From Streptomyces sp. NBC_01335 (GTDB taxonomy: Bacteria; Actinomycetota; Actinomycetes; Streptomycetales; Streptomycetaceae), in contig NZ_CP108370.1 in NCBI RefSeq assembly GCF_035953295.1, positions 4,803,001 to 4,867,000 of the forward strand: DNA of 64,000 bases, written 5' to 3'. Shown here piece by piece: positions 21,171 to 38,282 of the stretch (position 1 is its first letter; each line of letters starts with the position of its first letter). Both the position numbers and the translations under genes were made by a program. The notes under the pieces were generated by a model. It saw nothing but the letters and a program-made list of their open reading frames with translations. It had not been told where the DNA came from and did not search any database.

Positions 21171-21796
21171 GGGCACCGAGTGCGACACGGAGTGTGACCG
21201 GCCCCGGGGCGTTCCTTCGAACGTTCCGGGGCCCGGTGCGTTCCTTCGAACATTCCGGGGCCCGGTGCGTGAGCGACCCGGCGCGGCCTCCGGCCGAACG
21301 ACGGCAGTGTTGAAGACGCGCCCGGCGACCGCGTCCGGCGCGGAGAATCCGGCCTCCCTCGACAGCGAGCTGCGCGCACGGGCAGGGAGCCCGCGGGGAA
21401 GCGCGGGGCTGCTCGCGGGGGCGCTGCTCCTCGATTCCCTGCCGGTCGCCGTCCCCGCGCCCCCCTGGCCGTCCGCACCCGCCCCCTCCGTCAGGGTGAA
21501 CCCGGCCCGACGCGGACCATCGGGGTGAACCCGGTACCGAGTCCCCGGCGGCTTCCCGGGTGCCCGCCGCGCCCCGCACCCACGGCCTGACCCGGAAACG
21601 GCCCGAACGCCCCCCCCGGACCACCGCCCGCCACCCCGTCCCGCACGCGACCACCTCCCGCGAGTCGTAGGGTGGAGACCCCGGCCCGTTCCACGTGTCG
21701 GGCCCTTCGCGTTGCGTCCCCTCACGGCGCGGCGCGCAGCTCCTGGCAGCAGCCGGCTGCCGGGAAGCCCGAAGCCACCCCGGACGGAAGCCCTCC
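21171..21796. other. Long gap before mfd
   Basis: 626 bp. The first 100 bp hold the repeated hairpin terminator described separately. From about 21270 to 21690 I find no convincing gene on either strand. The mfd promoter should lie in the last ~200 bp; GAGTCGTAGGGTGG near 21663 offers a TAGGGT -10-like element but no good -35. Confidence 0.45.
21200..21266 (+). terminator. Tandem-repeat hairpin terminator after the ABC operon
   Basis: A 29-bp unit occurs twice in tandem (21209-21237 and 21238-21266) with one mismatch. The first unit, with the bases before it, forms a 15-bp stem (21200-21214 against 21219-21233; two G-U pairs) with a CTTC loop. The second can form a similar, bulged hairpin. 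It lies 30 bp after the permease stop. Confidence 0.75.
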
Positions 21797-24700
21797 ATGA
21801 GCCTGCACGGTCTGCTGGATCTCGTCGCACGCGATCCCGCGCTCTCCGAAGCGGTGAAGGCCGCCACCGACGGTCACCGGATGCACGTCGACCTGGTGGG
21901 GCCGCCCGCCGCCCGCCCCTTCGCCGTGGCCTCGCTGGCCCGGGGGACGGGGCGTACGGTCCTCGCGGTCACCGCCACCGGCCGGGAGGCCGAGGACCTG
22001 GCCGCCGCGCTGCGCACCCTGCTGCCGGCGGACTCCGTCGCGGAGTACCCGTCCTGGGAGACCCTGCCGCACGAGCGGCTCTCACCGCGCTCGGACACCG
22101 TGGGGCGGCGCCTGGCCGTGCTGCGGCGCCTGGCGCACCCGCGCGCCGACGACCCGGAGACGGGGCCGGTGAGCGTGGTCGTGGCGCCCGTGCGTTCCGT
22201 ACTCCAGCCGCAGGTCAAGGGGCTCGGCGACCTGGAGCCCGTGGCGCTGCGGAGCGGTCAGAGCGCCGATCTGGGCGACGTCGTCCAGGCGCTCGCGGCA
22301 GCCGCGTACTCCCGGGTCGAACTGGTCGAGAAGCGCGGTGAGTTCGCGGTGCGCGGCGGCATCCTGGACGTGTTCCCGCCGACCGAGGAGCACCCGCTGC
22401 GGGTGGAGTTCTGGGGCGACGACGTCGAGGAGATCCGGTACTTCAAGGTCGCCGACCAGCGCTCCCTGGAGGTCGCCGAGCACGGGCTGTGGGCCGCGCC
22501 CTGCCGGGAGCTGCTCCTCACCGACGAGGTCCGCGAGCGCGCCGCCGTGCTGGCCGAGGCCCACCCGGAGCTGGGCGAGCTGCTGGGCAAGATCGCCGAG
22601 GGCATCGCGGTGGAGGGCATGGAGTCCCTGGCGCCGGTGCTCGTGGACGACATGGAGCTGCTGCTCGACGTCCTGCCGAAGGGCGCGATGACGCTGGTCT
22701 GCGACCCGGAACGGGTCCGTACCCGCGCCGCCGACCTCGTCGCCACCAGCCAGGAGTTCCTCCAGGCGTCCTGGGCGGCCACGGCGGGCGGCGGCGACGC
22801 CCCGATCGACGTGGGCGCGGCCTCGCTGTGGTCCATCGCGGACGTACGCGACCGGGCCCGCGAGCTCTCCATGATGTGGTGGTCCACCTCCCCGTTCGCC
22901 GCCGACGACGAGCTGGACGAGGACACCCTCAAGCTCGGGATGCGCGCCCCGGAGGCGTACCGCGGCGACACCGCACGCGCGCTCGCCGACACCAAGGGAT
23001 GGATCGCCGACGGCTGGCGCACGGTGTACGTCACCGAGGGCCAGGGGCTGGCCTCGCGCACCGTCGAGGTGCTCGGCGGCGAGGGCATCGCCGCCCGGCT
23101 CGACCCCGACCTGACGGAGATCTCGCCGTCCCTCGTCCACGTCTCCTGCGGCGCCATCGACCACGGGTTCATCGACGCCGCGCTGAAGCTCGCGGTGCTC
23201 ACCGAGACCGACCTCACCGGCCAGCGCACCGCCACCAAGGAACTCGGCCGGATGCCGGCCCGCCGCCGCAAGACCATCGACCCGCTGACGCTGGAGGCGG
23301 GCGACTACATCGTCCACGAGCAGCACGGCGTCGGCCGGTACATCGAGATGGTGCAGCGCACCGTGCAGGGCGCCACGCGCGAGTACCTGCTCGTCGAGTA
23401 CGCCGCCGCCAAGCGCGGCCAGCCCGGCGACCGGCTCTACATCCCGACCGACCAGCTGGAGCAGGTCACCAAGTACGTGGGCGGCGAGGCGCCGACCCTG
23501 CACCGGCTCGGCGGCGCCGACTGGACGAAGACCAAGCAGCGCGCCAAGAAGGCCGTCAAGGAGATCGCCGGCGACCTGATCAAGCTCTACAGCGCCCGCA
23601 TGGCCGCCCCCGGCCACGCCTTCGGCCCCGACACCCCCTGGCAGCGCGAACTGGAGGACGCCTTCCCGTACGCGGAGACGCCCGACCAGCTCTCCACGAT
23701 CGCCGAGGTCAAGGAGGACATGGAGAAGACGGTCCCGATGGACCGCCTGATCTGCGGCGACGTCGGCTACGGCAAGACGGAGATCGCGGTACGCGCCGCT
23801 TTCAAGGCCGTACAGGACGGCAAGCAGGTCGCCGTGCTCGTCCCCACGACTCTTCTCGTCCAGCAGCACTACGGCACGTTCACCGAGCGGTACTCGCAAT
23901 TCCCGGTCAACGTGCGGGCGTTGAGCCGCTTCCAGTCCGAGTCGGACTCGAAGGCCACCCTCGCCGGGCTGAAGGACGGCGCCGTGGACCTCGTCATCGG
24001 CACCCATCGGCTGTTCTCCTCCGAGACCAAGTTCAAGGACCTCGGCCTCGTCATCGTCGACGAGGAGCAGCGCTTCGGCGTCGAACACAAGGAGCAGCTG
24101 AAGAAGCTCCGCGCCAACGTCGACGTCCTCACCATGTCCGCCACCCCCATCCCCCGTACTCTCGAAATGGCCGTGACCGGCATCCGCGAGATGTCCACCA
24201 TCACGACCCCGCCCGAGGAGCGGCACCCCGTACTGACCTTCGTCGGCCCGTACGAGGAGAAGCAGATCGGCGCCGCCGTACGCCGCGAACTCCTGCGCGA
24301 GGGGCAGGTGTTCTACATCCACAACCGGGTCGAGTCCATCGACCGCGCCGCCGCCCGGCTGCGCGAGATCGTCCCCGAGGCCCGGATCGCCACAGCACAC
24401 GGCCAGATGTCCGAACAGGCCCTGGAACAGGTCGTGGTGGACTTCTGGGAGAAGAAGTTCGACGTCCTCGTCTCCACGACCATCGTCGAGTCCGGCATCG
24501 ACATCTCCAACGCCAACACCCTCATCGTCGAGCGCGGCGACAACTTCGGCCTCTCCCAACTCCACCAGCTGCGCGGCCGGGTGGGCCGGGGCCGCGACCG
24601 CGGATACGCCTACTTCCTCTACCCGCCGGAGAAGCCGCTCACCGAGACCGCCCACGAGCGCCTCGCCACCATCGCCCAGCACACCGAGATGGGCGCCGGC

Positions 24701-25327
24701 ATGTACGTCGCCATGAAGGACCTGGAGATCCGCGGCGCGGGCAACCTCCTCGGCGGTGAGCAGTCCGGCCACATCGCGGGCGTCGGCTTCGACCTCTACG
24801 TCCGCATGGTCGGCGAGGCCGTCGCCGACTACCGGGCGCAGATGGACGGCACGGTCGAGGAGGAGGCGCCGCTGGAGGTCAAGATCGAGCTCCCGGTCGA
24901 CGCCCACGTCCCCCACGACTACGCCCCCGGCGAGCGGCTGCGCCTCCAGGCGTACCGCGCCATCGCCTCCGCCAACTCGGAGGAGGACGTCCGCGCGGTC
25001 CGCGAGGAACTCACCGACCGCTACGGCAAGCTCCCCGAACCCGTCGAGAACCTCCTCCTCGTCGCCGGCCTGCGCATGCTGGCCCGCGCCTGCGGAGTCG
25101 GCGAGATCGTCCTCCAGGGCTCCAACATCCGCTTCGCCCCGGTGGAACTCCGCGAGTCGCAGGAGCTGCGGCTCAAGCGGCTCCACCCGAAGACCGTCAT
25201 CAAGGCCGCCACCCACCAGATCCTGGTCCCCCGCCCGACCACCGGCCGCATCGGCGGGAAGCCGGTCGTGGGGCGCGAACTGCTGGCGTGGACGGGGGAG
25301 TTCCTGACCACGATCCTGGGGTCGTAG
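21797..25327 (+). CDS. mfd: Transcription-repair coupling factor Mfd
   Basis: A 1176-residue DNA translocase that removes stalled RNA polymerase and recruits UvrA to lesions. Order of domains: UvrB-like N-terminus (1-~330), RNA-polymerase interaction domain with GDYIVHEQHGVGRY (~505-520), helicase lobe 1 with Walker A GDVGYGKTE (~655) and Walker B VDEEQRFG (~755), lobe 2, and the C-terminal TRCF domain. The ATG at 21797 (MSLHGLLDLV) matches the usual family N-terminus. Monocistronic by appearance. Confidence 0.97.
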   Translation: MSLHGLLDLVARDPALSEAVKAATDGHRMHVDLVGPPAARPFAVASLARGTGRTVLAVTATGREAEDLAAALRTLLPADSVAEYPSWETLPHERLSPRSDTVGRRLAVLRRLAHPRADDPETGPVSVVVAPVRSVLQPQVKGLGDLEPVALRSGQSADLGDVVQALAAAAYSRVELVEKRGEFAVRGGILDVFPPTEEHPLRVEFWGDDVEEIRYFKVADQRSLEVAEHGLWAAPCRELLLTDEVRERAAVLAEAHPELGELLGKIAEGIAVEGMESLAPVLVDDMELLLDVLPKGAMTLVCDPERVRTRAADLVATSQEFLQASWAATAGGGDAPIDVGAASLWSIADVRDRARELSMMWWSTSPFAADDELDEDTLKLGMRAPEAYRGDTARALADTKGWIADGWRTVYVTEGQGLASRTVEVLGGEGIAARLDPDLTEISPSLVHVSCGAIDHGFIDAALKLAVLTETDLTGQRTATKELGRMPARRRKTIDPLTLEAGDYIVHEQHGVGRYIEMVQRTVQGATREYLLVEYAAAKRGQPGDRLYIPTDQLEQVTKYVGGEAPTLHRLGGADWTKTKQRAKKAVKEIAGDLIKLYSARMAAPGHAFGPDTPWQRELEDAFPYAETPDQLSTIAEVKEDMEKTVPMDRLICGDVGYGKTEIAVRAAFKAVQDGKQVAVLVPTTLLVQQHYGTFTERYSQFPVNVRALSRFQSESDSKATLAGLKDGAVDLVIGTHRLFSSETKFKDLGLVIVDEEQRFGVEHKEQLKKLRANVDVLTMSATPIPRTLEMAVTGIREMSTITTPPEERHPVLTFVGPYEEKQIGAAVRRELLREGQVFYIHNRVESIDRAAARLREIVPEARIATAHGQMSEQALEQVVVDFWEKKFDVLVSTTIVESGIDISNANTLIVERGDNFGLSQLHQLRGRVGRGRDRGYAYFLYPPEKPLTETAHERLATIAQHTEMGAGMYVAMKDLEIRGAGNLLGGEQSGHIAGVGFDLYVRMVGEAVADYRAQMDGTVEEEAPLEVKIELPVDAHVPHDYAPGERLRLQAYRAIASANSEEDVRAVREELTDRYGKLPEPVENLLLVAGLRMLARACGVGEIVLQGSNIRFAPVELRESQELRLKRLHPKTVIKAATHQILVPRPTTGRIGGKPVVGRELLAWTGEFLTTILGS

Positions 25328-31183: not shown

Positions 31184-32314
31184 GTGGACGACCGCATACA
31201 GAAGATCGTGACGGAACTGCCCGGCATGACGAGCGTGACCGACGTGTGGAAGACGGCTGACCGCAGCCTCGCGGGAGGGAAGCCCGCCTTCCTCGCGAGC
31301 CTCGGCATCGCCCTCACCGAGGCGTACGGCTCCGGGGCCGTGAGGGGTTGGCAGTACGACAGCGTCCTCGGTCACCTGCTCCGGTCGCTGGCCGTCACTC
31401 CGGGCCCGGGGAACGTCGCCGAAGCGCTGCGGCTGGCCGCCTCGGTCGAGGCGGCCGACCGGAAGGTGAGCCGCCGCATCGCCTCGATGCTGGCCTCCTG
31501 CCATCCGGCCGAGGAGCTGACCGTGGCCTTCACCGGGAAGGCGCCCGAGGAGTTGCGCGCCTGCCTGGTCCACGAACTGGTACTCAGGGGCGTCGCTGTC
31601 ATGGAGGTTCCGGCCATCGCGGCGTGGGCGGGGTCCCCGCACTGGCGGCGGCACCCGCTGCGGTGGCTGCCGTGGACGCTCTCCGATGTGGAGGGCGAGC
31701 CGGACATGCCCGGCTACAGCGTGCACGGGGGCAGCCACTCGCTGCCGTACGGCCCTACGGGAAGCCGACAGGCGACGGCCGGCAGCCGGTCGACGCCGCC
31801 CCGGGCCGAGGAGACCACGACCCGAGCCGTGGCCACCCGCATCGGTTCCGCCGTGGCGAACTGGGCCGAGGAGTCGAACGGGACCGTCGAGGCACGGGTC
31901 TTCGAACTGGCGCGTCCGATGGACGTCGGGTCGGTACCTGTCCTGCTGCCGGGCCTGGGGCTGGCGTGCCTGGCGACGAAGGGAAAGAAGAAGGCCTCTC
32001 TCTCCACGACCGCCTGCCCGCCGGACCACGCGTGGGCCGTACTCTTCGCGGCCGCGTCCACCGGAGGCGCCTACAACTCCGGTGGGTACGGCGCCTACGG
32101 GCGACTGGCCGCTTGGCACTCCCTGGCCGCCCTCGCGGGAGCCGCCGAGGACAGCACGGCGGAGGAGGCCGAGGCCCGGGTGAGGGCGTGCGGCTGGTAC
32201 TCCTTCGACGCCCGTACGGAGTGGTTCGAGGGAGTGGCCTGGGACGTCGGCCTCGCCGCCCTCTCACCGGACGGCTTGCGGTTGGCGGTGCTGGCGGCGA
32301 CGGACACCGACTGA
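31184..32314 (+). CDS. DUF6183-like protein, unknown function
   Basis: A 376-residue soluble protein with no signal or membrane segment. N-terminal helical repeats (residues 5-110) precede a more mixed region with LPGLGLACLATKGKKKASL and a C-terminal Ala/Gly-rich part (STGGAYNSGGYGAYGRLAAWHSL). The layout matches proteins I know as DUF6183, common in Streptomyces and without known role. GTG 31184 (VDDRIQKIVTELPG) is taken as start; an ATG at 31166 is in frame. Confidence 0.6.
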   Translation: MDDRIQKIVTELPGMTSVTDVWKTADRSLAGGKPAFLASLGIALTEAYGSGAVRGWQYDSVLGHLLRSLAVTPGPGNVAEALRLAASVEAADRKVSRRIASMLASCHPAEELTVAFTGKAPEELRACLVHELVLRGVAVMEVPAIAAWAGSPHWRRHPLRWLPWTLSDVEGEPDMPGYSVHGGSHSLPYGPTGSRQATAGSRSTPPRAEETTTRAVATRIGSAVANWAEESNGTVEARVFELARPMDVGSVPVLLPGLGLACLATKGKKKASLSTTACPPDHAWAVLFAAASTGGAYNSGGYGAYGRLAAWHSLAALAGAAEDSTAEEAEARVRACGWYSFDARTEWFEGVAWDVGLAALSPDGLRLAVLAATDTD

Positions 32315-32582: not shown

Positions 32583-33329
32583 TCAGCCCAGGTCCACCAT
32601 GTCCTTCGCGGCCGGCTTCTCCGCCACGACGGGCTTGTCGAAGTCGGAGAAGGTCATGGTCATCGGCTCGTCGCCGCCCGTGGAGCTCACCTGGAGGAGC
32701 TGCGGGGTACTCCCGGTGGACACCAGGATCGAGTAGGTCTCCTCGCCGTCCTTCTCGGTCAGGCGGAACGCGGGAGCGCCCGCGAAGGTGGTCGGTCCCA
32801 CCTTCTTCGCCTCCGTGTCGCCGTCCTCGAAGTCCTTGAGGAGCGACTCCAGGTCACAGAACTCGAGCATGTCCTTCGTGTCCGGGTCCGAGGCCTTCTC
32901 GGTCATCCAGTGGTCGGCGACCGTGTCCACCGCGGCCTGGGTGTCCGCCTCGGACTCGCCCTCGGACTGCGCGCGCAGCATCGCCTCGTCGAGCTTCATG
33001 TAGACGGTCTGGTCGATCTTGATGACCGCCATCGAACCCTGGTCGCCCATGGCCATGGTGCCGGTGCACTTGCCGCCGCCGATGCTGGTCGAGAACTCGG
33101 CCTTCATGGGGCTGTCGGCCGACTTCATGTCGACGGAGAGGTGCAGGGAGGTCGCCTTGCGGATGTTCTTGAGCGCCGAGTTGACGACGTCGGGGCCCGA
33201 CTTGTCCGCGAAGGGTGCGACCTTCTTCGCGGGCGAGGCCGCGCCGCCCTCCTCGGCGCCGCAGGCGGCGAGGCTGAGGACGGAGAGGGTGCAGACGGCG
33301 GCAGCGGCGGTACGCGCGACTCGGCGCAT
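32583..33329 (-). CDS. Secreted lipoprotein, LppX/LprG-like fold
   Basis: A 248-residue protein. Signal peptide with lipobox SLAACG (cut before Cys-24) for membrane anchoring. The body reads as alternating strands (SLHLSVDMKSADSPMKAEFSTSI, MAVIKIDQTVYMKLDE, YSILVSTGSTPQLLQVSS), typical of the half-barrel LolA/LprG-like lipoproteins that carry lipids or sense envelope state. ATG 33329 has GGAG eight bases upstream on the minus strand. Divergent from the methylase-like gene with a shared A/T-rich promoter. Confidence 0.75.
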   Translation of the reverse strand: MRRVARTAAAAVCTLSVLSLAACGAEEGGAASPAKKVAPFADKSGPDVVNSALKNIRKATSLHLSVDMKSADSPMKAEFSTSIGGGKCTGTMAMGDQGSMAVIKIDQTVYMKLDEAMLRAQSEGESEADTQAAVDTVADHWMTEKASDPDTKDMLEFCDLESLLKDFEDGDTEAKKVGPTTFAGAPAFRLTEKDGEETYSILVSTGSTPQLLQVSSTGGDEPMTMTFSDFDKPVVAEKPAAKDMVDLG

Positions 33330-33648
33330 GGCGGTACTCCAGGAGAAGGAAGAAGCGGAGGGTGCAGGAAGCGGAGAGGAGGAACAGAGGCAGACGCCGC
33401 CCCGAGGCGTGCGGGCACGTCGGACGGCGCCCGGATGACAACGGGAGGAAGTGACTTGAGCACCGACGGCGTTCACCGGTGCGGGCACAGCTCCATCACA
33501 GCAGAGCTTGTGAACCGAGTCAACAATGAATTGTGTGAACACCTGACACTCGACTGTGTATCGATCGGTGCGGCGTGCGTCGGTATGCTCGCCTGCACAG
33601 CGCGAACGGTGGCGCGAACGGTGACGATTCGGACCAGGGAGAGAGCAA
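33330..33648. promoter_or_regulatory. Divergent promoter region with A/T-rich symmetric patch
   Basis: 319 bp between lipoprotein and methylase-like genes. The A/T-rich stretch 33505-33560 contains ACAAT-GA-ATTGT symmetry and TTGTGAACCGAGTCAACAA. It is the likely promoter and operator zone for both genes. Near 33615 CGCGAACGGTG is repeated twice. Confidence 0.45.
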
Positions 33649-35928
33649 GTGCCGGAGAACGCCTCTGAGGTGACCGCCGCCGGGATCGCCCGCCTGGCAG
33701 GAGTCGGACGGGCGGCCGTCAGCAACTGGCGCCGCCGCCACGCGGACTTCCCCAAGCCGGTCGGCGGTACGGAGACCAGCCCGTCCTTCGCGCTCGCCGA
33801 GGTGGAGGACTGGCTCCGGGGGCAGGGGAAGCTGGTCGAGGTGCCGCTCCGGGAGCGCGTCTGGCAGCAGCTCTCCGGACATCCGGCCGGTACGGTCGCC
33901 GCCCTGATCCACGTCGGCTGCGCCTTGTTGCTCGTACGTGACCGGCCCACCGCCTGGCTGGAGCTGGCGGCGGTCTCGGACGAGCGGGTCGCCCGACTGC
34001 TGCCCGAGGCCCTGGCGCCCGTACTCGACGCCCGGTTCGGGCCGCAGGTTCCGGGAGGGCGCGAGGAGGCCGGACCGGCTCGCCGCGAATCCGCCGCCCC
34101 GCCCCCCGTCCGGGCCGTCCAGGCGCCCGGGGCGGAGGCGCTGCTGTCGTCCGTACCGTTGCTGCGTGGGGCTGCCGCGCTGGCGGCGGAGTCCGGGGCC
34201 GGGCCGGCCTTCGAGTTCCTCTTCGGCCGCCAACTGGACGCCAATCCACGGCAGTACACGCTCACCCCGCCCGATCTGGCCGCGCTCATGGCCGACCTCG
34301 CCGTCCCGCCCGAGGGCCCCGGCCGCCGCCCGTCCCGGAAGACGCCCGCCCCCGCCGTGCTGGACCCCGCGTCCGGGACCGGGGCGCTGCTGCGCGCGGT
34401 CGGCCGGCCCGCCGCCCTGTACGCGCAGGAGGCCGACCCGGACCTCGCGGCGCTCACCGCCCTCCGCCTCGCCCTGGGAGCGGGCGGCGGTGCGGCCCCC
34501 GAGGCGCCGGAGCTCGCGGTGCGTACCGGCGACACCCTGCGCGCGGACGCCTTCCCGAAGCTGGCGGCCGACGTGGTGCTCTGCCACCCGCCGTTCAACG
34601 AACGCAACTGGGGCCACGACGAACTGGCCTACGACCCCCGGTGGGAGTACGGGTATCCGGCCCGCGCCGAGTCCGAACTCGCGTGGGTCCAGCACGCGTT
34701 GGCCCGGCTGCGCCCCGGCGGCACCGCGGTGCTGCTGATGCCCCCGGCCGCCGCCTCCCGCCGCTCCGGCCGCCGCATCCGCGCCGACCTGCTGCGCCGG
34801 GGCGCGCTGCGGGCCGTCGTCGCGCTGCCCGCCGGCGCGGCCCCGCCGTACGGCGTCCCGCTGCACCTGTGGGTTCTGCGCAGGCCGGACCACGGCGTGC
34901 AGCCCTCGCCCGAACTCCTCCTGGTGGACACGGCCGAGTCCACCGACCCCACGACGGGCGCGACCGGGGCGGCCGGTGGCATCGGCGGGCTCGTCGGCGG
35001 CCTCCCGGGAAGTGGCCGCGAGCGGATGGACTGGCCGCTCGTCCGCCGTACGGTGCTCGACGCCTGGCACGCCTTCGCCGCCGCCGGCCCCGGGCCCGAG
35101 GCCAACCCCGGCAACGCCCCCGCACCGGGGCCGCGCCGGGCCGTGCCCGTCATCGAACTCCTCGACGACGAGGTCGACCTCACCCCCGCCCGCCACCTGC
35201 CCCGTGCCGTCACCGGCAACGGGGCCGCCGAACTGGCCGACGTACGCAACCGGTTGACGGACGGTCTGCGGCTCACCCTCCGGCTGACCCCGCCGCCCGC
35301 CGACCCGACCGAGCCCGCGTCCCGGCCGTTCACCACCCTCGGCGAACTCGCCCGCGCGGGCGCCCTCCAGCTCAGCACCGGCGGCTCCGGCAGCACCAGC
35401 GGCACCAGTGGCTCCGGCAGCGCCCCCGGGCCCGTCCTCACCGAACACGACGTGCTCGGCAACACCCCGCCCAGCGGCCTCCCGGCCCCAGCGGCCACCC
35501 CCGGCACCACCCCCGGCCCCGCCGAGGACGCCGTCGTGCTCCGTGCCGGTGACGTCGTGGTCCCCGTGCTCGGCGGCGGCTCGGTCGTCCGGGTCGTGGA
35601 CGAGGCGGCCGCCGGGGCCGTGCTCGGCCGCAACCTCCAGTTGCTGCGCCCCGATCCGGCCGTGCTCGACCCCTGGTTCCTCGCGGGTTTCCTGCGCGGC
35701 ACCGCCAACAACCGCCGCGCCAGCAGCCACGCCTCCACCGCCTCGCGGCTCGACGCCCGCCGCATCCGGCTTCCCCGGCTCCCGCTGGACGAACAACGCC
35801 GGTACGGTGAGCAGTTCCGCGCCCTCGCCGCCTTCGAGGACGCACTGCGCACGGCGGGCCGACTCGGCGGACTGCTGGTCCAGGGCATGTACGACGGGCT
35901 CACGGACGGGACGGTCGCCCCGGAGTGA
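33649..35928 (+). CDS. HTH-fused N6-DNA-methylase-like protein with altered catalytic motif
   Basis: A 759-residue protein. Residues 5-60 are a winged HTH (AGIARLAGVGRAAVSNWRRR). Residues ~190-420 are a type I (HsdM-like) methylase core with SAM motif DPASGTGALL (~240). Motif IV, normally NPPF or DPPY, reads HPPF at 313-316 (CAC codon at 34585), so the residue that holds the target amino group is lost. Residues ~560-755 resemble an HsdS-type target-recognition half with NNRRASSHAS. No endonuclease is near. GTG 33649 follows GGGAGAGAG. It may bind DNA without methylating it. Confidence 0.82.
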   Translation: MPENASEVTAAGIARLAGVGRAAVSNWRRRHADFPKPVGGTETSPSFALAEVEDWLRGQGKLVEVPLRERVWQQLSGHPAGTVAALIHVGCALLLVRDRPTAWLELAAVSDERVARLLPEALAPVLDARFGPQVPGGREEAGPARRESAAPPPVRAVQAPGAEALLSSVPLLRGAAALAAESGAGPAFEFLFGRQLDANPRQYTLTPPDLAALMADLAVPPEGPGRRPSRKTPAPAVLDPASGTGALLRAVGRPAALYAQEADPDLAALTALRLALGAGGGAAPEAPELAVRTGDTLRADAFPKLAADVVLCHPPFNERNWGHDELAYDPRWEYGYPARAESELAWVQHALARLRPGGTAVLLMPPAAASRRSGRRIRADLLRRGALRAVVALPAGAAPPYGVPLHLWVLRRPDHGVQPSPELLLVDTAESTDPTTGATGAAGGIGGLVGGLPGSGRERMDWPLVRRTVLDAWHAFAAAGPGPEANPGNAPAPGPRRAVPVIELLDDEVDLTPARHLPRAVTGNGAAELADVRNRLTDGLRLTLRLTPPPADPTEPASRPFTTLGELARAGALQLSTGGSGSTSGTSGSGSAPGPVLTEHDVLGNTPPSGLPAPAATPGTTPGPAEDAVVLRAGDVVVPVLGGGSVVRVVDEAAAGAVLGRNLQLLRPDPAVLDPWFLAGFLRGTANNRRASSHASTASRLDARRIRLPRLPLDEQRRYGEQFRALAAFEDALRTAGRLGGLLVQGMYDGLTDGTVAPE

Positions 35929-36027
35929 GCTGAGCCGCATCCGTTGTGCACAACCGGGGAACGGCTGTCCGCGCGGGTGTATACGCTCGCACCACCACAT
36001 CCGCCCATCGCCTCCCGGGAGCGGCAC

Positions 36028-36723
36028 ATGCACGGCTACGGCTATCCGCCGGAGCTTCCCCCGGCGCGCCCTTCCCCGGCGACGCTGACGGTCCTGCGCG
36101 TGGTCTTCGTGGCACTGGCCGTGCTGAGTTGCGGCTTTCTGGCGTGGGCGGCGATGCTGCGGCTGGCCATCGTGACCAAGCGGCCGCGCGACTGGGCGCT
36201 GTTCGCCCTCTCCCTCGTCTTCACGGCTGGCCTCGCCGTCTTCTTCGACATGATCCCCAGCGACGAGGACAAGATGACGACCGAGCAGGCGTTCGCCCTG
36301 CTCGGCGGGATGCTCGGCCTCATGGGCGGCGTCGCCTGGTACTACCTCCACCAGGACATCCGGCACTTCGGCCCTCTGGGGCCCGGCGCCGTGGCCGCCC
36401 GCGCGCTCGCCGCCGCCGGTTACCCGACCGCCGGCCCCGCCGGCCCCACCGGCCCCACCGGCCCCGCCGGTCCCGTGCAGGGGTACGGCTACCCGTACGC
36501 CGCCCCCGTCCACCCGGCCCCGCCCTACGGCGCACCGCCCGTCCCGCACCACCCGCAGGGCCCCGCGCCCTACCGGCCCACCCCGCCGCAGCAGCAATCG
36601 CCGCTCCAGCCGCAGCCCACCCCGCCCCCGCAGCGACCCGGCCCGCCCCAGCGGCTCGACCAGGTCCGCGCCGAGCTGGACGAGCTGAGCGACTACCTCC
36701 GCAAGGAGGGCGAGGGCCGGTGA
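36028..36723 (+). CDS. Membrane protein with collagen-like and Pro-rich tail
   Basis: A 231-residue protein with three hydrophobic helices (residues ~20-45, 55-75 and 90-110), then a flexible tail with GPAGPTGPTGPAGP (collagen-like Gly-X-Y) and many PPP/Q runs, ending in a short charged helix DQVRAELDELSDYLRK. ATG 36028 has GGGAG six bases upstream. Its TGA overlaps the kinase start (GTGA), so it is made together with the kinase and may serve as its membrane partner. Confidence 0.7.
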   Translation: MHGYGYPPELPPARPSPATLTVLRVVFVALAVLSCGFLAWAAMLRLAIVTKRPRDWALFALSLVFTAGLAVFFDMIPSDEDKMTTEQAFALLGGMLGLMGGVAWYYLHQDIRHFGPLGPGAVAARALAAAGYPTAGPAGPTGPTGPAGPVQGYGYPYAAPVHPAPPYGAPPVPHHPQGPAPYRPTPPQQQSPLQPQPTPPPQRPGPPQRLDQVRAELDELSDYLRKEGEGR

Positions 36724-38282
36724 GCGGTCGCGTCGTCGCCGGGCGGTACGCACTCGCGGCGATCCTCGGCCAGGGCGGCATGGGCCAGGTCTGGACGGCG
36801 TACGACCAGCGGCTCGACCGCCGGGTCGCGGTGAAGCTGCTGCGCCCCGACCGGATGGGCGTGCCCGGCGGCCCCGAGGAGGCCGACGAGCTGCGCCGCA
36901 GGTTCGCCCGGGAGTGCCGGGTGACCGCGCAGGTCGACCACCCCGGACTGGTCACCGTCCACGACGCCGGGGGCGACGGCGACGACCTCTTCCTCGTCAT
37001 GCAGTACGTCGAGGGCTCCGACCTCGCCGACCACCTCGCCGAGCACGACCCCTACCCGTGGCCCTGGGCCGTCGCGGTCGCCGCCCAGCTCTGCGCGGTG
37101 CTCAGCGCCGTGCACGCGGTGCCGATCGTCCACCGCGACCTCAAGCCCCGCAACGTCATGGTCCGGCCCGACGGCACCGTCACCGTGCTCGACCTCGGCG
37201 TCGCCTCCGTACTCGACAACGACACCACCCGGCTCACCCACACCGGCTCCCCGATCGGCTCCCCGGCCTACATGGCGCCCGAGCAGGCGATGGGCGGCGC
37301 GGTCGGCCCGTACACCGACCTGTACGCACTCGGCGTGCTGCTGCACGAACTGCTCAGCGGGGACGTGCCGTTCTCCGGGTCCACCGCGCTCGGCGTGCTC
37401 CACCGCCACCTCTACGAACCGCCGCTGCCGGTCCGTCACCTCCGCGCCGACGTGCCCGAGCCGCTGGAGGCCCTCGTCCTGCGGCTGCTCGCCAAGGACC
37501 CGCAGGCCCGCCCCGGTTCCGCGCAGGAGGTGTACGAAGCCCTCGCCCCGCTGCTCCCCACGCGCGGGACGCCCGGCGGACCGCTCGACCCGACCCGCCC
37601 GTTCCTCCGCCCGCACGCCCCCTGGCCCGACCGGGCGACCGCACCGGCCCCCGCACCGGTCACCGGCTTCGGGCCGCCGACCGTACCCGCCGAACGACCG
37701 GCGTCCGGCCGGGCCGACGTGGCGCGCGCCGTCGACGACGTCAAGCGGCTCCTCGGCGAGGGCCGGATCACCCAGGCCGTCGACATCCTCGGCGCCATCC
37801 TGCCGACCGCCGCCGCCGAGCACGGCGAACACTCGCCCGTCGTCCGTATCCTCCGCAAGCAGTACGCGGCGACGCTGATGGACGACGGCCAGTACCGCCG
37901 CGCCCTGCCCGAACTCCGCCGCCTCACCGACGACCGCACCGCCGAGGCAGGACCCGGCGACCCGCAGACCCTCCAGTACCGCTACGACGCCGCCACCTGC
38001 CTGGAGCAGCTGGGCGAGACGGCCGCCGCGCTCAACGAGTACCGCGCGGTCCTCCCGTACTACGAGAACGTCTACGGGGCCGTCGCCGGCGACCCCGGCC
38101 GGGCCTTCGACATCCGCCACCGCATCGGGCTGCTGCTGCTCGCCGTCGGCGACCACACCGCAGGACGCGCCCAGCTCCAGGCCCTGCTGTACGACACCGA
38201 GCGCTCCTACGGCCCGCACCACCCGCTCCCCGCCGAGCTGCGCCGCCGGCTGACCCACCAACAGGACGTACGCGGCGGCTGA
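36720..38282 (+). CDS. Hanks-type Ser/Thr protein kinase with C-terminal TPR-like region
   Basis: A 520-residue kinase. Gly-rich loop LGQGGMGQVW (~14-23), catalytic Lys-39 (VAVKLL), HRDLKPRN (~138-145), DLG in place of DFG (158-160), APE in PAYMAPEQ. A Pro-rich linker (~285-330) leads to TPR-like helices (~335-515: AVDILGAILP, YRRALPELRRL, TAAALNEYRAVLPYYENVYG). It has no membrane segment, unlike PknB-type kinases. Start GTG 36720 overlaps the stop of the membrane protein gene. Targets unknown. Confidence 0.9.
   Translation: MSGRVVAGRYALAAILGQGGMGQVWTAYDQRLDRRVAVKLLRPDRMGVPGGPEEADELRRRFARECRVTAQVDHPGLVTVHDAGGDGDDLFLVMQYVEGSDLADHLAEHDPYPWPWAVAVAAQLCAVLSAVHAVPIVHRDLKPRNVMVRPDGTVTVLDLGVASVLDNDTTRLTHTGSPIGSPAYMAPEQAMGGAVGPYTDLYALGVLLHELLSGDVPFSGSTALGVLHRHLYEPPLPVRHLRADVPEPLEALVLRLLAKDPQARPGSAQEVYEALAPLLPTRGTPGGPLDPTRPFLRPHAPWPDRATAPAPAPVTGFGPPTVPAERPASGRADVARAVDDVKRLLGEGRITQAVDILGAILPTAAAEHGEHSPVVRILRKQYAATLMDDGQYRRALPELRRLTDDRTAEAGPGDPQTLQYRYDAATCLEQLGETAAALNEYRAVLPYYENVYGAVAGDPGRAFDIRHRIGLLLLAVGDHTAGRAQLQALLYDTERSYGPHHPLPAELRRRLTHQQDVRGG

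Follow-up and report, generated by a model that had tools for sequence, protein, structure and literature searches.

Does a protein built like a DNA methylase, but with histidine at the first position of motif IV, still methylate DNA, or has it been kept in another role? The question is raised by a protein encoded at positions 33649–35928 of the window, that is, the whole stretch of 64,000 nt of Streptomyces sp. NBC_01335 (NZ_CP108370.1, GCF_035953295.1) analysed here, to whose positions the coordinates refer. As the first-pass annotation had read from the letters, an HTH, an HsdM-like core with an intact SAM motif and an HsdS-like half are fused in one chain with HPPF at motif IV, and this observation was confirmed (Table 1). 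The PF02384 fold and motif I of gamma N6-adenine methylases are both present. To our knowledge, the N6-adenine methylases characterised so far depend on N or D in motif IV, and the motif of active enzymes is written (N/D/S)PP(Y/F/W), its first letter varying among N, D and S; the protein instead reads HPPF. Its HTH part, which gave only weak, sub-threshold AlpA/HTH_17/MerR-like profile matches, is predicted from these and from the model to be a DNA-binding domain, fused to the methylase part as in M.SsoII. An antisense ORF (33520–36753, 1077 aa) was set aside by judgement as a high-GC shadow.

Table 1. Positions of the fusion protein, its parts and the associated features (window positions; contig positions for the paralogue).
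Feature	Position	Strand	Remarks
HTH–HsdM-like–HsdS-like fusion, 759 aa, probable pseudo-methylase	33649..35928	+	sequence, profiles, predicted model
N-terminal helix-turn-helix part, residues 7–58	33667..33822	+	model and weak profiles
HsdM-like methyltransferase core, residues 185–435	34201..34953	+	PF02384 fold
Motif I DPASGTG, SAM-binding, retained, residues 239–245	34363..34383	+	
Motif IV HPPF in place of NPPF, residues 313–316	34585..34596	+	
HsdS-like C-terminal part, residues 560–759	35326..35925	+	one TRD and one long helix
Operator-like element TGTGAACnnnGTCAAC / TGTGAACCGAGTCAAC	33509..33524	+	about 125 bp upstream of the start codon
Membrane protein W1, Pro-rich tail	36028..36723	+	sequence reading; translation start uncertain, reading frame open from 35944
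Ser/Thr protein kinase W2 with TPR repeats	36720..38282	+	catalytic motifs present
Paralogue L093, motif IV NPPS	contig 6093542–6095704		own element copy, convergent kinase

In HsdM of type I R-M systems and in PacII M1 and M2 (7vru, 7vs4), motif IV is NPPF or NPPY, in contrast to the HPPF found here, and motif X of HsdM is GEFYTP, as against RQYTLTP. The chain further differs from HsdM by the HTH added in front and the TRD behind, and the HsdR of a type I R-M system was not found, no HSDR_N (PF04313) match being obtained at E 0.001 in the window's genome. A need for motif IV in methylation is indicated both by work on EcoKI, in which the motif was reportedly required, and by double pocket mutants of PacII. 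The latter, N276A/F279A in M1 and N285A/Y288A in M2, are described as reduced in methylation in the available part of the source (PMC9613975). Among the matches listed from open-licence literature, no test of an N-to-H change in motif IV was found. PADLOC model PDLC03037 ('MTase_I') matches the protein over its full length (residues 2–758) with 403 bits, as against 925 bits for L094, an R-M-linked member with NPPY. This model names a type I methylase, whereas an active enzyme of that kind is at odds with motif IV and the genome context. Methylome and defence surveys can thus list genes of this kind among the methylases; if they are regulators, such orphan 'methylases' would leave no mark.

According to the first-pass annotation, a histidine fixed among homologues beside an intact SAM motif would support a changed function. 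Indeed, among the orthologues, for which the best 80 out of 527 confirmed relatives were taken (records named Streptomyces and one [Kitasatospora] papulosa), HPPF was found in 80 of 80, with CAC as the H codon in 69 and CAT in 11, and motif I was kept in the loci displayed. In 28 aligned HPPF orthologues, mean identity was 0.91 for the HTH (residues 6–58), which is the most conserved part of the protein, 0.78 for the core and 0.79 for the TRD. The QPP and DPPx clades likewise show a TRD identity equal to or above that of the core, unlike the kinase-linked DPPF clade (core 0.75, TRD 0.64); the corresponding values in the NPPY clade, mostly R-M-linked, are 0.81 for the HTH, 0.69 for the core and 0.53 for the TRD. 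A diverged relative in the same gene context (L145/L185) combines HPPY with a damaged motif I, DPACGSA.

Matches were also obtained in at least 26 of 41 relatives and, class-wide, in at least 47 of 148 genomes (other HsdM-like proteins counted in), the distant members having the same build. The first letter of motif IV in this actinobacterial family is N, H, D, Q, E, S, Y, A or G. Thus, 142 family sequences, a set weighted heavily to Streptomyces and containing one duplicate (L003) and one partial sequence (L124), comprise HPPF (93), NPPF (10), DPPF (7), NPPY (6), QPPS (4), EPPF (3), two each of NPPS, QPPT, SPPF, DPPA, DPPT and DPPV, and one each of DPPS, HPPY, NLPF, YPPT, EPPL, GPPS and APPF. 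On a quick tree with several long branches and 22 of 73 inner branches starred (76 rows and 211 columns, the motif being left out of the alignment, L003 and L124 dropped and every eighth core orthologue used), a minimum of 16 changes is seen at the first letter; exchanges between N and non-N number at least 8, both directions counted, and those between H and non-H 4. The motif X loop keeps its G in a form related to GEFYTP (SGAYxTP, GGKAHxTP) in the clade of L091–L095, L137, L138, L157 and L168, and is altered in most other members displayed, including NPPF members L097, L101, L103 and L132; since L101, L103 and L132 share the alteration, it is no clear mark of inactivity. Nearly all members (exceptions: L110, L111 and L142) have ELAW.QH where HsdM has ANFAW.QH or ANYAW.QH. 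Nor does the HTH–M–S build by itself mean a pseudo-enzyme, because it is family-wide and occurs also with NPPF or NPPY beside type I R-M genes.

These data can be weighed against the view that the protein is an active methylase with an unusual motif IV, in which H313 would replace N at the target amino group (m6A or m4C) and the HTH would be an autoregulator as in M.SsoII. Such an enzyme would be expected to retain the SAM motif, the fold and the TRD, as observed; the PP and F of motif IV are kept in 80 of 80 orthologue loci (best 80 of 527), the motif of known enzymes itself varies among N, D and S, and the 4 H/non-H changes on the tree are also expected from a tolerated active variant. In other lineages, however, N has given way to Q, E, Y, G or A and F to S, T, V, A or L, a pattern that fits loss better than tuning, and the PacII pocket mutants described above likewise speak against activity, so that we consider continued methylation unlikely.

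A DNA-binding role is suggested by the region upstream of the gene. The sequence TGTGAACCGAGTCAAC is common to the upstream regions of the orthologues, with exact GTGAACCGAGTCAAC in 69 of 80 (79 of the best 80 of 527 loci and the window). Of these 69, 43 extend to GTGAA-N14-TTCAY, with the consensus GTGAACC-N10-GGTTCAC; the window's own copy is without the second arm. The element score exceeded the 99% level of random windows from the same loci in all 80 orthologue loci (best 80 of 527). When up to two mismatches were allowed, the 16-mer occurred twice in the window's genome, before the gene itself and before the paralogue. Moreover, 10 genomes contained nine exact copies of TGTGAACnnnGTCAAC, all within about 150 bp before family genes (HPPF four, NPPF two, NPPS, QPPS and EPPL one each), for a chance expectation of 0.037 per genome of this composition. 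The exact form was absent from 3 of the 10, two of which (G063, G133) hold several family genes, and the exact 16-mer was absent from eight fetched loci where the family gene is gone or truncated and the neighbours are kept. With one mismatch allowed, every one of the 10 genomes had more matches to the element than to a reversed-pattern control (8 versus 3 in the window's genome, 15 versus 2 in G031), so that other targets or a coding-sequence bias may contribute. The site is therefore private to its own gene and relatives, in the manner of M.SsoII, as a sequence and for exact matches, with one-mismatch copies elsewhere.

Outside the core clade, at least 11 of 13 element positions matched within 250 bp upstream in 23 of 50 family genes, as compared with 13 of 1336 control genes (kinship uncorrected). 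All family loci were left out of this control, the 21 windows with 13/13 in an earlier control being most likely family genes of duplicate loci. Four control windows reached 12/13; three are promoter regions that a kinase or UvrD gene shares with the family gene beside it, and the fourth lies in L180. The remaining 27 of the 50 had fewer than 11 matches, with at most 8 in L135, L142, L143, L146, L156, L165, L187 and L111. Among the matches listed from open-licence literature, there was no paper on this family or element, and three exact element forms were unmatched.

The type of element appears to change together with the type of HTH. Where HTH residue 20 is G (32 non-core members), the TGTGAAC type (at least 11 matches) was found in 19 and the TGAAAGC type in none, and where it is T (13 members), the TGAAAGC type was found in 7, all of the NPPY/SPPF clade; the TGAAAGC pattern was derived from the same sequences that were scored, and clades are confounded. 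If these proteins are regulators, the G-type and T-type HTHs with their different elements make the switch from enzyme to regulator directly testable. Kinase genes convergent to the family gene, which have promoters of their own, also carry near-copies in three of four cases among 11 loci examined (12/13 in L104 and L167, 11/13 in L103), the kinase convergent to the paralogue having none, and the UvrD gene of L103 is preceded by a 12/13 copy. On account of these near-copies, the element may mark a small regulon in which the family gene is joined by the kinase or helicase gene beside it. A UvrD-type helicase adjoins L103 (5612–7762), L106, L107, L108, L156, L170 and L184.

Alternatively to an operator, the element could be part of a promoter. 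By our own reading, the minus strand of the Streptomyces consensus has TTGACT and, 17 bases on, TCTTAT; this promoter-like reading overlaps the element and lies in the intergenic region that the element has in common with a divergent 248-aa gene (32583–33329, minus strand), whose product is lipoprotein-like by eye and has no Pfam match. Beyond it lies a DUF6183 protein (31184–32314; PF19681, E 3e-144), found near the orthologue in 2 of 80 loci (best 80 of 527).

Given the short conserved DNA site before the gene and its relatives, a regulator role is probable. Collectively, we judge that the protein is probably a type I-like methylase that is no longer active and has been retained for autoregulation through DNA binding, similar in logic to M.SsoII. 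Its ancestor would have been a type I-like (HTH–M–S) DNA methylase in which the N-to-H change in motif IV most likely abolished base methylation, while the SAM motif was retained, as were the HTH and the half responsible for DNA recognition. The HTH would bind TGTGAACnnnGTCAAC upstream of its own gene, and the protein would in this way set its own level and that of the downstream membrane protein and Ser/Thr kinase. The computations show that H is fixed, that the element is conserved and in its exact form occurs only before family genes (10 genomes), that near-copies lie at 3 of 4 convergent kinases and that element type differs with HTH type; HTH binding to the element, repression, a single transcript for the three genes and lost catalysis are inferred, and the protein may also sense SAM. 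The earlier proposal of a non-methylating DNA-binding regulator has thus gained independent support in its DNA-binding regulatory part, from evidence that it had not foreseen: the upstream element, which is conserved and goes with this family of genes.

In M.SsoII, the N-terminal domain acts as a repressor of the enzyme's own gene; the 15-bp site concerned has been reported from SsoII-like systems alone, and regulation and methylation are mutually exclusive, as stated in the available part of the source (PMC6100179). The likeness to M.SsoII and M.Ecl18kI thus lies in an N-terminal DNA-binding domain on a methylase and a site in the own upstream region (available part of PMC6100179). Those enzymes are, however, of the m5C class with catalysis intact, whereas the present protein is HsdM/HsdS-like, has probably lost catalysis and is accompanied by no restriction gene that we found; being HsdM-like and not a C5-cytosine methylase, it is alike in logic only and not a member of that class. 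A wider scenario is conceivable, though doubtful, in which type I-like methylases of this actinobacterial family turned several times independently into self-regulating DNA-binding switches, the HTH holding an operator specific to the family, the dead M/S half reading SAM and its own target site (or the methylation placed there by others) and the switch controlling a Ser/Thr kinase.

The ORFs of W1 and W2 overlap at 36720–36723. W1 lies directly downstream in 70 of 80 and the kinase at +2 in 76 of 80 orthologue loci (best 80 of 527; some loci end early). A Ser/Thr kinase within 2 kb accompanies the core HPPF, HPPY, QPPx, APPF, GPPS, DPPS and YPPT members, most DPPF members, one DPPA member and four N members (L002, L101, the kinase of which is divergent, L103 and L168), and the membrane protein stands between gene and kinase in the HPPF and QPPx clades; all four HPPF members that do not belong to the core clade (L131, L136, L163, L165) lack a kinase neighbour. 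The tree has 70 family rows, of which two at contig ends were dropped; among the remaining 68, a kinase neighbour was found for 36 of the 52 with a non-N motif and for 4 of the 16 with N, the independent pairs on the tree being not significant. The linkage, though strong in raw counts, was not taken as proof of function, since these pairs are not significant and the kinase persists without the gene, and it was kept only as support. The orthologue, with HPPF or in one case HPPY, is present in at least 12 of the 33 genomes of the same genus, all 12 with the kinase, and 20 of the 33 have the kinase orthologue (a 21st match, in G014, is a 45% relative). In 8 of these 20, where the local region was checked, the intact gene is missing: seven retain nothing of it, and one keeps a C-terminal remnant (residues 646–759). 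The gene is therefore dispensable, and the kinase does not need it.

The kinase neighbour also invites the view of a defence sensor, in which the M/S half would bind its target sites on incoming DNA and the kinase would be the effector of a reduced MADS/Pgl-like module. The parts of MADS include MAD1 (HTH), MAD2 (methylase), MAD5 and MAD6 (kinase). The family has the same kinds of part, with weak to moderate profile matches, but fused in one chain: L097 matches the MAD1, MAD2 and MAD5 profiles along its length, the present protein matches MAD2 with 73 bits and the neighbouring kinase matches the MAD6 and PD-T4-6 models. Presence is patchy, too, in at least 12 of 33 same-genus genomes. These kinase models, however, match any such kinase, the kinase is retained in 8 of 20 genomes without the intact gene, and the MAD1–MAD8 set was not encountered; among the 10 nearby genes scanned, only the MAD2-like core and the MAD6-like kinase were seen, with no other MAD and no BREX model at E 1e-8. 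We accordingly regard a defence sensor as rather improbable. Elsewhere in the window, a 1210-aa protein (21695–25327) weakly matches a Cas3-like helicase model of PADLOC (E 1e-11).

Another possibility is that the protein is a pseudo-subunit of a heteromeric methylase, giving specificity to an active M partner as METTL14 does to METTL3. Some members do stand beside a potential partner. NPPY/NPPF members L091, L094, L095, L097, L130 and L137 and the NLPF member L138 precede HsdM and HsdR; the neighbours of L094 were confirmed by Pfam as HsdM_N plus N6_Mtase, Methylase_S, and HSDR_N plus helicase. The three EPPF members, the EPPL member and one of the two SPPF members also precede HsdM, with HsdR in all except EPPL, and the HsdM beside EPPF member L188 reads NPPF. 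The window's genome, in contrast, encodes two PF02384 proteins at E 1e-5, the HPPF protein and the NPPS paralogue at 6.09 Mb, and the orthologue is the sole PF02384 match (E 1e-8) in 2 of 8 other genomes (those of L029 and L083). As far as PF02384 was searched, the window's genome seems to be without an active partner, and these scans lower the partner model to a decidedly improbable one. The EPPF/EPPL members L186, L187, L188 and L109, which adjoin HsdM (with HsdR in three), may act within a type I R-M locus as a regulator or as a dead partner.

That the gene is a functionless, decaying leftover of an R-M system, as its loss from eight examined kinase loci (7 without trace, 1 with a C-terminal remnant) might suggest, is scarcely credible in view of HPPF in 80 of 80 orthologue loci (best 80 of 527), a TRD conserved among 28 aligned orthologues and a retained element. 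Searches with the protein gave no phage match at 1e-10 and one partial plasmid match at 1e-20, covering 17% of the query.

An orthologue of the dead-methylase regulator proposed here might be SroLm2 of S. roseosporus L30, an orphan of 838 aa. In the available part of the source (PMC9240718), a single m6A motif is reported for this strain and attributed to SroLm1, none being attributed to SroLm2, and deletion of SroLm2 slows growth on ISP4 and MM.
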